A stretch of DNA of 37,903 bases, taken from positions 1 to 37,903 of the forward strand of contig DUAE01000019.1 in NCBI GenBank assembly GCA_012960975.1, written 5' to 3'. The translations under genes were made by a program, and so were the position numbers. The DNA is from Candidatus Poseidoniales archaeon. Lineage in GTDB: Archaea; Thermoplasmatota; Poseidoniia; Poseidoniales; Thalassarchaeaceae. Positions 11,579 to 16,769 of this stretch are shown here, one piece after another; position 1 is the first letter of the stretch, and every line of letters starts with the position of its first letter. The notes under the pieces are model-generated. The model had not been told where the DNA came from. It worked only from the letters and a program-made list of their open reading frames with translations, and ran no database searches.

Positions 11579-12835
11579 ATGAAAGAGAATGAACTAATCT
11601 TTGATTGGAATGCTGTTGATTATGAAATTAAGCGAAATTCATCAAATCATCCTCATGAAATTTGGTTCGATGATGAAACGCTTAGAGACGGTTTGCAAAG
11701 CCCTAGTGCAAGAAATCCAACAATTGAACAAAAGATCGAATTAATCGATTATATGGAAAAACTCGGTATTCAAAAAGTCGATCTAGGCCTACCTGGAGCA
11801 GGTCCTTTTCATGTTGGCCACATCGATTCGATGCTGGCTCACATGGGTGAAAATAGTTACGAATTACGCCCTGGATGTGCGGTTCGAACTGTAGTTGGAG
11901 ATATCGAGCCACTCATCGATTTGCAAGCAAAACACGAACGGCAAATTCAGGCTAGTGCATTTTTGGGAACCAGCCCAATTCGTCAATATGCAGAGGGCTG
12001 GACGATGGAGCGAATCCTTTCAACCGCGGAAAAGGCTGTATCTTTCGCAGTCGACAACGATATCCCAGTGATGTTTGTGACCGAGGATACGACGAGAAGT
12101 AAACCCGAGGAAATCAAAGCGGTTTACACTCGAGCAATGGAACTGGGTGCTGACCGAATCTGCATCTGTGATACCTGCGGCCATGTTACTCCGAACGGTG
12201 TTCGAAAACTGCTAACATTCATTCAAGACGAAGTTATTCCTGATGCAGGATTCAAACGTCGTGATATCGAAGTAAATTGGCATGGACATCAGGACCGCGG
12301 GCTTGGAGTTGCTAACAATCTGGCCGCTGTCGAATCTGGAGCTGATGTCATCCACGGAACCGCTCTTGGAGTCGGTGAGCGAGCGGGTAATGCGCCGCTC
12401 GATCAAACCCTCGTCAACCTGTCATTGATGGGCGTGATAAATAACGATCTTACAGCCCTCAATGATTACATGAGAAAAGCACACGAATATATCGAAGTCG
12501 CATTACCACACAATTATCCTGTCTTTGGCGAAGATGCTTTTGAAACCGGCACAGGAGTACATGCAAGTGCAGTTATCAAAGCCATAAAAAAAGGCGACCA
12601 ATGGTTAGCTGACCGTGTTTATTCAGGTGTTCCTGCTCAAGATTTTGGACTCAAACAAATAATTCGAATCGGTCATATGAGTGGGCGATCCAACATTATT
12701 TGGTGGCTAAAACAGAATGGGTTCGAAGCTGATGATGAATTGGTTGCTCATATGTTCGAGGTGGCAAAAAGTCAACGACGAATGATGACTGATGAAGAAG
12801 TAAAAACAACCATTGCTGAGTTTCAAGCATTATGA
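11579..12835 (+). CDS. Isopropylmalate/homocitrate synthase family (DRE-TIM) acyltransferase
   Basis: This 418-residue TIM-barrel enzyme belongs to the DRE-TIM metallolyase superfamily. The signature is DDETLRDGLQSP (metal-binding Asp and catalytic Arg). The metal-site histidines are in NWHGHQDRGLGVANN, where the second metal-site motif is HGHQD rather than the common HxHND. The GVGERAGNAPL glycine-rich loop and the late FETGTGVHASAVIKA segment follow. The domain organisation is that of 2-isopropylmalate, citramalate and homocitrate synthases, which condense acetyl-CoA with a 2-oxoacid. The usual C-terminal LeuA regulatory domain is missing: the protein stops about 120 residues short of a full-length LeuA. 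It may thus be feedback-insensitive or belong to a different substrate class. No other leucine or lysine synthesis genes are adjacent. The exact substrate cannot be read. Confidence 0.83.
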   Translation: MKENELIFDWNAVDYEIKRNSSNHPHEIWFDDETLRDGLQSPSARNPTIEQKIELIDYMEKLGIQKVDLGLPGAGPFHVGHIDSMLAHMGENSYELRPGCAVRTVVGDIEPLIDLQAKHERQIQASAFLGTSPIRQYAEGWTMERILSTAEKAVSFAVDNDIPVMFVTEDTTRSKPEEIKAVYTRAMELGADRICICDTCGHVTPNGVRKLLTFIQDEVIPDAGFKRRDIEVNWHGHQDRGLGVANNLAAVESGADVIHGTALGVGERAGNAPLDQTLVNLSLMGVINNDLTALNDYMRKAHEYIEVALPHNYPVFGEDAFETGTGVHASAVIKAIKKGDQWLADRVYSGVPAQDFGLKQIIRIGHMSGRSNIIWWLKQNGFEADDELVAHMFEVAKSQRRMMTDEEVKTTIAEFQAL

Positions 12836-12893: not shown

Positions 12894-15800
12894 ATGCGTT
12901 CCTCATTCGCAGTACTGACGATTCTTTTGCTTGCACCCGTATCTGGGATTGTCTCAGGTGATACAGCGCCTGAATTTGATTTGGAAATTGGCGAAGAAAT
13001 GCTTCTTCCAACTTATTCACGCGCAGTTCAATTAGCGTTCGCACGTGTCTCTGAAATGGACCAATATTCGATTGAGACTCTACAATCGACCAATGATTGG
13101 CTTATCGTGACTCAAGTCCCAATCGAAAAACAATTTATGTTAATATCTGCACCTGAAGAGATTCGCGGTGCACCGATATTACGCGGTGCTTATATCTGGA
13201 CTTTCGATGCACCGCTGGATGCAATCTCATCTCTAGAAGAATCATTATTTAGAGGTGAGATTGAATCTTTCTCGCCATTGGTCGAGAAGCAGCAAACACC
13301 TCGAAGCGCGCCGAATGATGAAAATTTTACCCAGCAATGGCACCTAGAAAACACCGGTCAAACTTGGGGAACGACTGGTGAAGATGCGAATGTAACTGGG
13401 GTTTGGGATTATTTCACTGGGACAGGTATTACCATCAGTGTCGTCGATGATGGATTGGATAAAGATCATCCAGATATCTCACCGAATTACTCTCCAACCC
13501 ATTCCTATGATTGGTGCAATAATGATGCAGATCCAAGTCCTTCTGGTTGGAATGGACATGGAACAGCCGCAGGTGGTGTTGCTGCTGCCGCTGGCGATAA
13601 CACAATTCACGTCGCTGGCGCTGCTTACGATGCTACAATCGCCGGCTCTACTCTAATTGCCTGTTGGGCTGGAGATGCGACAGAAGCAAACGCGCTAAGT
13701 TATCACCAGAATGACATCGATATTTACACAAATTCCTGGGGGCCTAGCGATAACGGACAAACTCTGGAGGGTCCAGGTCCTCTGACGTTAGCTGCGATGG
13801 AAGATGATGTTTACAATGGTCGAAATGGCGATGGAAACATCATTACTTGGGCAGCTGGAAATGGTCTTGATAATAATGATAATGTAAATTACGATGGCTA
13901 TGCTAGTTCCAGATATACTATCGCCGTCGCCGCGATAACCCATTATGGTGAACAATCATATTACTCGGAGCCTGGGGCAAGCATACTCATCGCAGCCCAC
14001 TCTAATGGTGATGGTGAAGGAATCACAACTACCGATATTCATGACGACCCTGATAATAGTTCAGACGATGCTGGATATGACAATGGAAATGTCACACACA
14101 CTTTCGGTGGAACCTCCAGCGCTACACCACTGGCCGCTGGGGTAATCGCGCTAATTCTTGATGCAAATGGAAATTTGACCTGGCGCGACATTCAGCACGT
14201 TTTGGTTCAGAGCGTCAGAAAAAATGATGCATCTGATTCGAGTTGGGGAATTAATGGAGCGAACCATGATGTCTCCCACAAATACGGATTTGGGGCTATT
14301 GATGCCGGTGCTGCGGTCGCTCTGGCTCAGAATTGGACAAATGTTGACGAAGAAATGAATTCTACATTCGGCCCATACAGTTCTGCTACCACTATTCCTT
14401 CAAACTCAGCCTCATGGACCGAATTCACGACATCAGTTACCAACGATATGCAGGTTGAGAGTGTTGATGTTATAGTCGACATTGACCACCCTAGTCGAGG
14501 CAACCTCGAAATAGTTCTAGTATCACCAGACGGAACAGAATCTTGGCTGGCCGAGGAACACTCTGATAGCAATTCAGATTATTCGAATTGGATGTTCAAT
14601 ACCGTTCAACACTGGGACGAGGGAGCATTGGGAACTTGGACTCTGAAAGTTAGAGACGATACAGCCGGATCAGCGGGAACGCTCAACTCATGGGAAATGA
14701 TTCTACATGGAATTGATATCGATCTCGACCATGACGATGATGGATTGAGTGATGAGAACGAAACTAATCTTTACGGTACCGATCCTTACAATGCAGATAC
14801 CGATAATGATGGCTTGAATGATTACGATGAAATCGTCATTTATGGAACAAACGCTACAATGCCTGATACAGATTTGGATGGGCTTTCTGATTCGATTGAA
14901 ATCTCAGTTTACTCGACCGACCCGTTAGATTCCGACTCTGATGACGACGGATTATCCGATGGGTTAGAAGTCAATTATTGGTCGAGCGACCCACTGGTAT
15001 ACGATGCTGATTCGGATGGTGATTTATTCTACCATTTTGATGATTGCGATGACAATAATCCGGATATAAACCCCGGCAAACCGGAGAAATTGAATAACTA
15101 TGATGATAATTGTGATGATTATATCGATGAAGGGTTCAATTTCACCGACCGAGATAACGATGGATTACGGGATTGGCCAGAATACCATATTCATGGCACT
15201 GATTATCAAGATTCAGATACGGATAATGATGGTTTGAGCGATGGTGAAGAAGTCAATACCTATGCAGCTCTTGGTGCCAATCCATTAATCGTAGATGCAG
15301 ATGCGGATGGGGACGGCTGGTATTGGTTCCAAGATTGTGCGGATAATGACGAATATAGATCACCTGGTCTGCCAGAAATCCTCGATGGAATCGATAACGA
15401 TTGTGATTTTATCGTCGATGAAGATTTTTGGTCAATCGATACCGATAACGATGGATTGTTTGATTACGATGAATATCATAATTTTTCTACAAATCCGAAC
15501 GATGGAGATACAGATGATGATGGATTACCAGACGGATCTGAAATCAACACCTACGCGGATTTGGGGGCAGATCCATTAGTTCCAGATGCAGATGATGATT
15601 CGGATGGCTGGTACTGGTTCCAAGATTGCGATGACAATGATAACGAGCGCTCGCCATCTATCGCTGAAATGCTAGATGGAAAAGACAATGATTGCAATGA
15701 TGAAATCGACGAAACTTTTCATGATACCGACCACGATACAGATGGATTATCTGATTATGATGAATTTCACCTTTACAATACAGACTACATGGCAGTAGAT

Positions 15801-16769
15801 TCTGATGAAGATGGCCTGACCGATGGCGATGAAGTAATCGTCAGAGGATCTAATCCCAATTCTTACAATTATGACAAGGATGAAGATACCTTCTACGATT
15901 ACGAAGATTGTCAAGACCTAGTTCCAGAAATCAATCCAGCCGCTAATGAAATTTGGAATGGATGGGATGATGATTGTAACGACCTCGTCGATGATAACCT
16001 TGAGCGAATAAATTTAGTTTACACCTCACCACAATATGGTTTGCCTAGCACATGGGATGCTGTAAATGAAACTCTAGTGATTGGAATTAACGGAATTCCG
16101 TCACAAATCGAAACTCAAATTACTTGGACAATCAATGGATATAATTTGCAAAATAACCTTTCTTCGGAAGATACAAGGATCGATATTCTAGTTCTTGATT
16201 GTGACCGCCAGATCGATGAATTAACTGCTATCCTGTGTTCGAATGGGTCGTCGCCACAAACGATACAAGCTGTTATGATTGACTCAGGAATTACGACGAC
16301 ATTTTCATGGGAGATTCAGATGGATATTTGGATTCCACCACAGACTTTCAGCGAGAAAATACTTGGGTTGTTAACATCAAGTTTAGGAATAGCGATTATT
16401 TTAGTATCCTTGTTGACCATTCTAGGTATTACTGGAGTCGGAATTTTACGCCTTAGACATACGAGGGAATTGAAGGACGCATATTCTGCTTACAAGATCA
16501 CACCCCAAAGTGGAGACCTGCCTGCTGAACATCGAAGATACGAATTACCCTCTGCACCAGATATTTCGGCGATGGTTCAGTCAATAGACGAGACTATCGT
16601 TTCGCCCCCACCCCTAGATTTGCCTTTACCTCCCCCCGCAACACCGGATAATACGCCGACTATTCCAGCTAGAGTACCGATCACAAAGGATGTTTCTGAA
16701 AATGATGATGAAATAGTTGAATTAGTCGATTTGCCTTCTCGAATCGTCGATGATTCTGATGAAAATTGA
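12894..16769 (+). CDS. Kexin/furin-like subtilase with P-domain, TSP3 and MopE-type repeats and C-terminal membrane anchor
   Basis: This secreted, membrane-tethered serine protease has 1291 residues. ATG 12894 gives a clean signal peptide (MRSSFAVLTILLLAPVSGIV); the frame is open upstream to 12813 but overlaps the previous gene. A propeptide extends to about residue 140. The S8 catalytic domain follows, with D185 (VVDDGLD), H222 (NGHGTAAGG), N323 (AAGNG) and S408 (GGTSSATP), so it should be active. Residues about 490-605 form a proprotein-convertase P-domain (HPSRGNLEIVLVSPDGT, GTWTLKVRDDTAG). Next come Asp-rich thrombospondin type 3-like calcium repeats (DxDxDGLxD). These alternate with four MopE-type units, each with the spacing DCxD...E...DNDCxxxxDE. 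One helix (about 1158-1182) is followed by a basic stop and a Pro- and acid-rich tail of about 105 residues. The gene resembles surface peptidases of marine group II archaea. It probably degrades or processes proteins outside the cell. Confidence 0.92.
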   Translation: MRSSFAVLTILLLAPVSGIVSGDTAPEFDLEIGEEMLLPTYSRAVQLAFARVSEMDQYSIETLQSTNDWLIVTQVPIEKQFMLISAPEEIRGAPILRGAYIWTFDAPLDAISSLEESLFRGEIESFSPLVEKQQTPRSAPNDENFTQQWHLENTGQTWGTTGEDANVTGVWDYFTGTGITISVVDDGLDKDHPDISPNYSPTHSYDWCNNDADPSPSGWNGHGTAAGGVAAAAGDNTIHVAGAAYDATIAGSTLIACWAGDATEANALSYHQNDIDIYTNSWGPSDNGQTLEGPGPLTLAAMEDDVYNGRNGDGNIITWAAGNGLDNNDNVNYDGYASSRYTIAVAAITHYGEQSYYSEPGASILIAAHSNGDGEGITTTDIHDDPDNSSDDAGYDNGNVTHTFGGTSSATPLAAGVIALILDANGNLTWRDIQHVLVQSVRKNDASDSSWGINGANHDVSHKYGFGAIDAGAAVALAQNWTNVDEEMNSTFGPYSSATTIPSNSASWTEFTTSVTNDMQVESVDVIVDIDHPSRGNLEIVLVSPDGTESWLAEEHSDSNSDYSNWMFNTVQHWDEGALGTWTLKVRDDTAGSAGTLNSWEMILHGIDIDLDHDDDGLSDENETNLYGTDPYNADTDNDGLNDYDEIVIYGTNATMPDTDLDGLSDSIEISVYSTDPLDSDSDDDGLSDGLEVNYWSSDPLVYDADSDGDLFYHFDDCDDNNPDINPGKPEKLNNYDDNCDDYIDEGFNFTDRDNDGLRDWPEYHIHGTDYQDSDTDNDGLSDGEEVNTYAALGANPLIVDADADGDGWYWFQDCADNDEYRSPGLPEILDGIDNDCDFIVDEDFWSIDTDNDGLFDYDEYHNFSTNPNDGDTDDDGLPDGSEINTYADLGADPLVPDADDDSDGWYWFQDCDDNDNERSPSIAEMLDGKDNDCNDEIDETFHDTDHDTDGLSDYDEFHLYNTDYMAVDSDEDGLTDGDEVIVRGSNPNSYNYDKDEDTFYDYEDCQDLVPEINPAANEIWNGWDDDCNDLVDDNLERINLVYTSPQYGLPSTWDAVNETLVIGINGIPSQIETQITWTINGYNLQNNLSSEDTRIDILVLDCDRQIDELTAILCSNGSSPQTIQAVMIDSGITTTFSWEIQMDIWIPPQTFSEKILGLLTSSLGIAIILVSLLTILGITGVGILRLRHTRELKDAYSAYKITPQSGDLPAEHRRYELPSAPDISAMVQSIDETIVSPPPLDLPLPPPATPDNTPTIPARVPITKDVSENDDEIVELVDLPSRIVDDSDEN
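14730..16010 (+). repeat. Composite TSP3 plus MopE repeat array within the subtilase gene
   Basis: A composite unit of roughly 95-98 codons recurs: two DxDxDGLxD calcium-loop segments, then a W/Y-rich step (DGWYWFQDC), then a MopE-type cysteine pair. The DxC positions at about 15046, 15335, 15626 and 15908 are spaced 280-295 bases apart. The second and third copies are the most alike (DGWYWFQDC, then S-P, then E-x-L-D-G, D-N-D-C), which suggests a recent internal duplication. The first two TSP3-like segments, before 15000, have no MopE partner. Confidence 0.75.

Follow-up and report, generated by a model that had tools for sequence, protein, structure and literature searches.

Furin and Kex2, among the described proteases closest to the one reported here, combine a propeptide, an S8B catalytic domain with both S1 aspartates and an oxyanion asparagine, a P-domain, a transmembrane (TM) helix, and a tail. 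Prokaryotic architectures that join a subtilisin domain to a P-domain have been tabulated, with bacteria, as we read the table, as the only hosts (PMC2605481). The Ca. Poseidoniales, or Marine Group II (MGII), are uncultured archaea that rank among the most abundant in the surface ocean (PMC6461757). Their peptidases are discussed in PMC6336850 and PMC6461757, where the words "kexin" and "proprotein" do not occur in the main text as available to us; thrombospondin and flotillin genes are described there as widespread (PMC6461757), and a subtilase is listed among the highly transcribed genes of both families in the accessible portion of PMC9723583. Across titles and the first lines of abstracts in the open-access literature, we found no description of the protease type or the tail motif treated below in Poseidoniales. 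Here, we analyzed a stretch of 37,903 nucleotides from a Candidatus Poseidoniales archaeon (GCA_012960975.1, contig DUAE01000019.1, positions 1 to 37,903), hereafter the window, which encodes a 1,291-residue S8B protease. As a whole, the locus is best explained, at a little better than even confidence, by a tethered S8B surface protease whose tail carries a docking motif common to other membrane-associated proteins. The parts of the gene are as follows.

12894..16769, + strand: S8B protease gene, 1291 aa, Ca. Poseidoniales (open reading frame [ORF] reading, Pfam, phmmer, orthologue scans)
12894..12962, + strand: signal peptide, residues 1-23, sequence MRSSFAVLTILLLAPVSGIVSGD (hydrophobic segment; exact cleavage point inferred)
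12963..13304, + strand: propeptide, residues 24-137, last residue Arg137, with predicted autocleavage between R and S (AlphaFold2 model, orthologue junctions)
13419..14294, + strand: Peptidase_S8 catalytic domain, residues 176-467, with Asp185, His222, Asn323, and Ser408 (Pfam, orthologue alignment)
13749..13751, + strand: Asp286, equivalent of furin S1 Asp258 (phmmer alignment; 58/58 orthologues)
13893..13895, + strand: Asp334, equivalent of furin S1 Asp306 (phmmer alignment; 58/58 orthologues)
14454..14702, + strand: P-domain, residues 521-603 (Pfam P_proprotein, 1.1e-24; inside the range aligned to furin and Kex2 in the model)
14727..15992, + strand: stalk of TSP3-type calcium repeats and MopE-type Cys motifs, about residues 612-1033 (Pfam, regular expression; end point by eye)
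16389..16445, + strand: TM helix, residues 1166-1184 (Kyte-Doolittle mean of 2.58 over 19 residues)
16446..16766, + strand: predicted cytoplasmic tail, 107 residues, Pro/acid-rich (hydropathy)
16545..16574, + strand: conserved tail motif LPSAPDISAM, residues 1218-1227 (orthologue tail comparison)

The reading frame is open from the ATG at 12894 to the stop at 16769. The program-made ORF list begins the frame at a TTG at 12813, but a start at ATG 12894 gives, by eye, a clean signal peptide. The gene is not a chance ORF: at E ≤ 1e-30, 225 of the order's 292 genomes, counting that of the window, encode a matching protein. A sequence-only reading of this DNA had proposed the order signal peptide, propeptide, S8 domain, P-domain, calcium and MopE repeats, one helix, and tail, and Pfam, hydropathy, and the AlphaFold2 model bear it out. 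In the model, a confident alpha/beta propeptide region is followed by a low-confidence linker from model residue 114 (residue 137). The Pfam match to Peptidase_S8 (8.8e-42) has the P-domain directly behind it, and the stalk holds 10 TSP3-type units by regular expression, with six TSP3_bac and four Cu-binding_MopE stretches by Pfam. TM and topology calls were made by Kyte-Doolittle hydropathy only. An Arg/His/Lys-rich stretch immediately follows the helix, and the tail is placed on the cytoplasmic side because of the signal peptide and these basic residues just inside the membrane.

When compared with solved structures by phmmer, the protein matched furin (2.2e-89) and Kex2 (7.9e-76), then Aeromonas ASP (1.7e-22) and thermitase (1.6e-6). 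An AlphaFold2 model of residues 24-615 (predicted local distance difference test score of 77, predicted template modeling score of 0.84) had furin as its best Foldseek match (2.4e-47), and VIA-align gave a Z of 48.1 at 1.9 Å over 437 residues against furin versus a Z of 31.0 over 261 residues against thermitase. A tree of 40 rows (midpoint rooting, with L090 and furin as long branches) separated all S8B sequences, furin and bacteria included, from the S8A rows of the window's genome (support 100/99). Because sequence match, predicted structure, and tree agree, the catalytic domain is, by sequence and model, of the S8B (kexin/furin) subfamily, as had been proposed; phmmer, fold, and tree all tell against an S8A exoenzyme. 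The triad, also anticipated as intact, is present as Asp185/His222/Ser408 and, like the oxyanion Asn323, is invariant in 58 of 58 orthologues. That alignment was drawn from 67 sequences after removal of the identical L017 and of the second halves of split matches (L070-L077).

The resemblance to furin (38 to 39% identity over the model) raises the question of descent. Three bacterial proteins with an S8B catalytic domain and a P-domain (Anabaena lutea L220, Pirellulales L225, and Desulfatirhabdium L222), all of those found among the best 80 of 445 matches, are 52% identical to the window protease over the two domains and have the same S1 pocket and Arg junction. The special parallel to eukaryotic convertases that had been drawn from the order of parts is not supported. 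These three have no C-terminal hydrophobic segment over threshold and are therefore taken to have neither tail nor motif. Orthologues L260 and L261 from the third family of the class (f3), which we take to be Marine Group III (MGIII), share the S8B pocket, the Arg junction, and a C-terminal TM segment but end in motif-free tails of 7 and 2 residues. If the eukaryotic convertases corresponded directly to, or descended from, this archaeal protease in every part, the tail among them, the identical order of parts and the strong furin match would be explained. However, furin pairs in the tree with the Desulfatirhabdium S8B (97/94), inside a bacterial set and apart from the archaeal clade (as the sole eukaryotic sequence, on a long branch), and no motif-bearing tail occurs in the bacterial or MGIII-type relatives examined; we regard such a relationship as extremely improbable. 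The window protease also differs from furin in having no acidic residue at the D191 position, and from furin and Kex2 in its monobasic self-cleavage site and its TSP3/MopE stalk. We know of no furin tail signal that resembles the tail motif.

For the substrate pocket, we used furin residue numbering and roles, including D258 and D306 in S1. The positions of furin D153, D154, H194, D233, D258, N295, D306, G307, and S368 are unchanged in 58/58 orthologues; 53 orthologues retain E236 and 52 retain Y308 (Trp in the other six), and the positions of E230 and E257 are acidic in none. At the propeptide junction, P1 is basic throughout (Arg in 51, Lys in 7), P2 is basic in just six orthologues, and P4 is Lys or Arg in two. 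An invariant S1 Asp pair together with P1 Arg/Lys and a rarely basic P2 leads us to predict, from sequence, monobasic cleavage after Arg/Lys and not the dibasic preference that had been suggested. Both S1 aspartates and the junction Arg are kept in five outgroup proteins (three bacterial, two MGIII-type). Seven divergent S8B paralogues lack the S1 pair (one retains D258, another D306), and none of the seven has the aligned junction Arg, the alignment being loose for the most divergent ones. That pocket and cleavage site change together points to self-cleavage after one basic residue.

One genome (G076) holds four extra, highly divergent S8B copies (L264-L267) in which the basic S1 pocket is lost. 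In genus g2, a second S8B paralogue (L262, L263, and L268) has Lys for D306 and a junction without Arg, and by sequence its specificity has probably changed; one g2 paralogue has a TM segment and a 27-residue tail without the motif.

The tail had been put at about 105 residues, which is close to the 107 observed, and called unusually long, which is not borne out within this genome. Seven of seven other S8 proteases read in the same genome (of nine others; L083 and L089 lie outside the seven) have a hydrophobic segment followed by a tail of 31 to 136 residues, so length does not set this tail apart. Its distinguishing mark is instead a brief conserved motif. None of the seven other tails carries it; surface-protease tails in general do not share it.

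A survey of tails in related archaea, as had been recommended, revealed this motif. In the first set of orthologues, tails ranged from 19 to 118 residues with little in common by eye except hydrophobic-P-x-A-P, which occurs in 51 of 57 tails (0.83 expected from shuffles); the strict form, [LVIMF]P[SAGE]AP[DEN][LVIMF], occurs in 45 (0.018 expected). The 57 tails remained from 67 after dropping L017, L052 (contig end), the first halves L063-L066, and the duplicates L074-L077. As the expression was written after these tails had been seen, 20 further orthologues were fetched, and 12 of 19 held-out tails fit (0.23 expected); here, the masked L128 was dropped and L133, with a seemingly frameshifted tail, was kept as a miss. 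In a third, named set, some of whose species also occur in the first two, 51 of 65 tails fit, 40 of them strictly (65 of 77 archaeal loci, 12 having been dropped because of a contig end, masking, or a frameshift). The 40 strict matches fall within 3,384 tail residues, compared with none in 73,212 ectodomain residues; two more, among 443 other ORFs totaling 182,146 residues (≥200 aa, all frames), both proved to be broken-off S8B tails. Among window ORFs of at least 100 aa, LPSAPDISAM is the sole match of its kind. The tail motif is real. Neither outcome that the sequence-only reading had set against itself was found: phmmer and the tree group the catalytic domain with S8B, not S8A, and the tail carries a conserved motif.

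These counts bear on a simpler explanation, namely, that the protein is a plain nutrient-scavenging, trypsin-like surface exoenzyme whose tail merely anchors it, with the motif arising incidentally from a disordered sequence rich in Pro and acidic residues. In the accessible parts of PMC6461757 and PMC9723583, MGII are portrayed as heterotrophs with a proteolytic lifestyle; tails are common on the genome's own proteases, and some genera have tails of just 19 to 26 residues without the motif. Composition fails to yield the motif at anything like the observed frequency, in the first set or in the held-out set, and the motif persists while the remaining tail diverges and is absent from the other S8 tails of the same genome. 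Shuffles and the real-protein background rule it out as a product of composition, yet looser DNA patterns are no commoner than their control in whole genomes. With the recurrence of the motif in another family (see below), we judge this explanation unlikely, although a nutrient role for the catalytic part is fully possible.

The same tails permit a comparison with motifs of the endosomal sorting complex required for transport (ESCRT). Two readers are conceivable for a proline-based hydrophobic-P-x-hydrophobic-P motif in a cytoplasmic tail: an MIT domain if the motif is a MIM2-like core, and a UEV domain if it is P[ST]AP-like. Either would sort the protease to vesicles or the division site. LPSAP matches the shape of the MIM2 core if Ala counts as hydrophobic (PMC8970359, as far as available), the window tail contains a literal PSAP, and a reduced Vps4/ESCRT-III system is reported for some Thermoplasmata in the portion of PMC11188069 at hand, in which the string "Poseidoni-" does not occur. 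However, x in MIM2 is charged by definition, according to the same part of PMC8970359, whereas the first motif of the 51 motif-bearing tails has Ser in 33, Ala in 9, Gly in 4, Glu in 3, Thr in 1, and Pro in 1, that is, an uncharged S/A/G in 46; P[ST]AP fits 34 of these and not the 17 with A, G, E, or P. The tail motif also has an additional D-hydrophobic-x-x-hydrophobic half, and MIM2 is reported there in Asgard and TACK archaea and as not found in Euryarchaeota (PMC8970359). A UEV-domain search was negative in 96 of 96 genomes, with the control likewise silent, and among the matches listed, no open-access literature was relevant to PSAP or late-domain motifs in archaea. An ESCRT-type role is, in our view, improbable.

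The motif recurs in other proteins. Genomes were scanned with DNA patterns for the motif against a reversed control pattern. The strict pattern gave 23 sites versus 2 control sites in 40 genomes, with sites in 19 of the 40, and an intermediate pattern gave 17 versus 7 in six genomes. The 23 strict sites comprise 13 S8B tails, three DUF2135-like proteins, one small single-TM protein, one SPFH/Band_7 protein (C terminus LPAAPDFDSLE), one SAP-domain protein, two extracellular Ig-like regions, and two sites outside genes. The DNA patterns led to proteins unrelated to the protease that combine a membrane segment with a cytoplasmic portion. The DUF2135-like family is coiled-coil with an N-terminal TM segment, and its Pfam match is weak (0.005, below the cut-off). 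Its members bear the motif near the C terminus in 16 of 19 f2 loci (12 strictly) and internally, ahead of the DUF2135-like domain, in one of five f1 loci (17 of 24 loci returned overall). The small single-TM protein has the motif in three genomes (L096, L109, and L272; grouped by eye). A third hydrophobic position, three residues past the core and in no search pattern, is present in 39/46 S8B, 13/13 DUF2135-like, and 7/10 other instances, compared with about 0.2 by composition; the binomials take no account of relatedness, and the instances outside the two families were chosen by hand.

Several matches were set aside as not being tail motifs: one in the ectodomain of another protein of the window's genome, those in Ig domains of S8A proteins, and one in a presumed shikimate dehydrogenase (by eye). 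The WW-like C terminus of L121, noticed by eye as a possible reader of the motif, contains no WW domain by Pfam.

In the 51 motif-bearing tails, the motif begins 18 to 47 residues past the hydrophobic window. Such spacing would serve an enzyme no less than a binding partner. The motif could instead be where a cytoplasmic protease or modifying enzyme recognizes the anchored protein so as to turn it over, release it, or regulate it. In the DUF2135-like and SPFH proteins, however, the motif lies near the C terminus of the cytoplasmic part, where a cut would free few residues, and we consider a recognition site of this kind quite improbable.

Thus, the tail motif is probably a docking motif common to several membrane-associated families, with a putative partner. 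In the mechanism that we propose, the protease would be exported, would remove its propeptide by a cut after a single Arg/Lys, and would stay tethered, cutting extracellular or surface proteins after Arg/Lys. On the inner side, hydrophobic-P-x-A-P-D-hydrophobic-x-x-hydrophobic would act as a short linear motif that docks on a cytoplasmic protein; this putative partner might also bind the motif-bearing DUF2135-like, SPFH, and small single-TM proteins and so gather or position them at the membrane. More tentatively, and with the balance somewhat against it, we suggest a lineage-specific Poseidoniales docking code of this form on unrelated membrane-associated proteins, read by a single putative adaptor, such that a protease on the outside would be placed by a scaffold on the inside. 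For the surface organization of MGII, a motif shared by a protease and scaffold-type proteins provides a testable handle in the form of a 10-residue bait for the putative partner; the predicted cleavage after single Arg/Lys would be useful in reading dissolved-protein turnover.

A number of observations weigh against the proposed mechanism. The first regular expression was derived from the tails on which it was tested, the strict form was recovered in only 6 of 19 held-out tails (0.0005 expected from shuffles), and the relatedness of the orthologues means that shuffle and binomial figures overstate independence. The motif is missing from all eight tails of fewer than 30 residues in the named set, from genera g5, g7, and g11 and the single g18 and g20 tails in the 57-tail set, from the two MGIII-type tails, and from four of the five f1 DUF2135-like loci. 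One looser DNA pattern gave 17 versus 18 control sites in four genomes, and another gave 2 versus 4 in six genomes. In the window's own genome, the strict DNA pattern has no site (the protease tail itself reads LPSAPDI); beyond the protease, one related tail form occurs, IPEAPEL in surface protein L119, and the other two pattern sites are in soluble-looking proteins. Each family beyond S8B and the DUF2135-like proteins is represented by one to three genomes, no binding partner of the motif was found, and the monobasic prediction derives from the self-cleavage site alone.

Other membrane proteins of the same genome have tails of separate interest. L084 and L085 (G000:C1 and G000:C39) are membrane-anchored S8 proteases with cytoplasmic tails that have, by eye, Cys-rich, zinc-ribbon-like ends. 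The surface proteins L087 and L119 (G000:C49 and G000:C59) have a common tail end, LPxGW[ST][IM]EQWVxYG, which may be a second shared tail motif (by eye). In L086 (G000:C28), one of the seven S8 proteins read, a single 1279-aa ORF apparently joins the S8 domain to a C-terminal half that has multiple TM segments and resembles a transporter.

The distribution of the protease was followed at two levels. A profile of the catalytic and P-domains retrieved proteins from 71 of 292 phylum genomes, 68 in the order and three in f3. A scan of genome contigs, in which the best 80 of 445 matches were considered, returned three bacterial loci and 77 from Poseidoniales or from unnamed Euryarchaeota/Thermoplasmata records, the latter of which we take to be Poseidoniales. 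By Pfam, the gene is preceded in the window by those for a UbiA protein and an HMGL-like synthase and followed by one for an AstE/AspA-type protein on the opposite strand. The HMGL and AstE neighbors are both kept at 32 of the 80 named loci (three bacterial), and 34 of the 80 lack any of the four neighbors counted, with some loci stopping at contig ends. One genome of family f2, genus g15, includes a contig (PSPR01000046.1; L017/L146) encoding a protein 100% identical to the window protease; because of this identity across families, the contig is probably misbinned in that metagenome-assembled genome.

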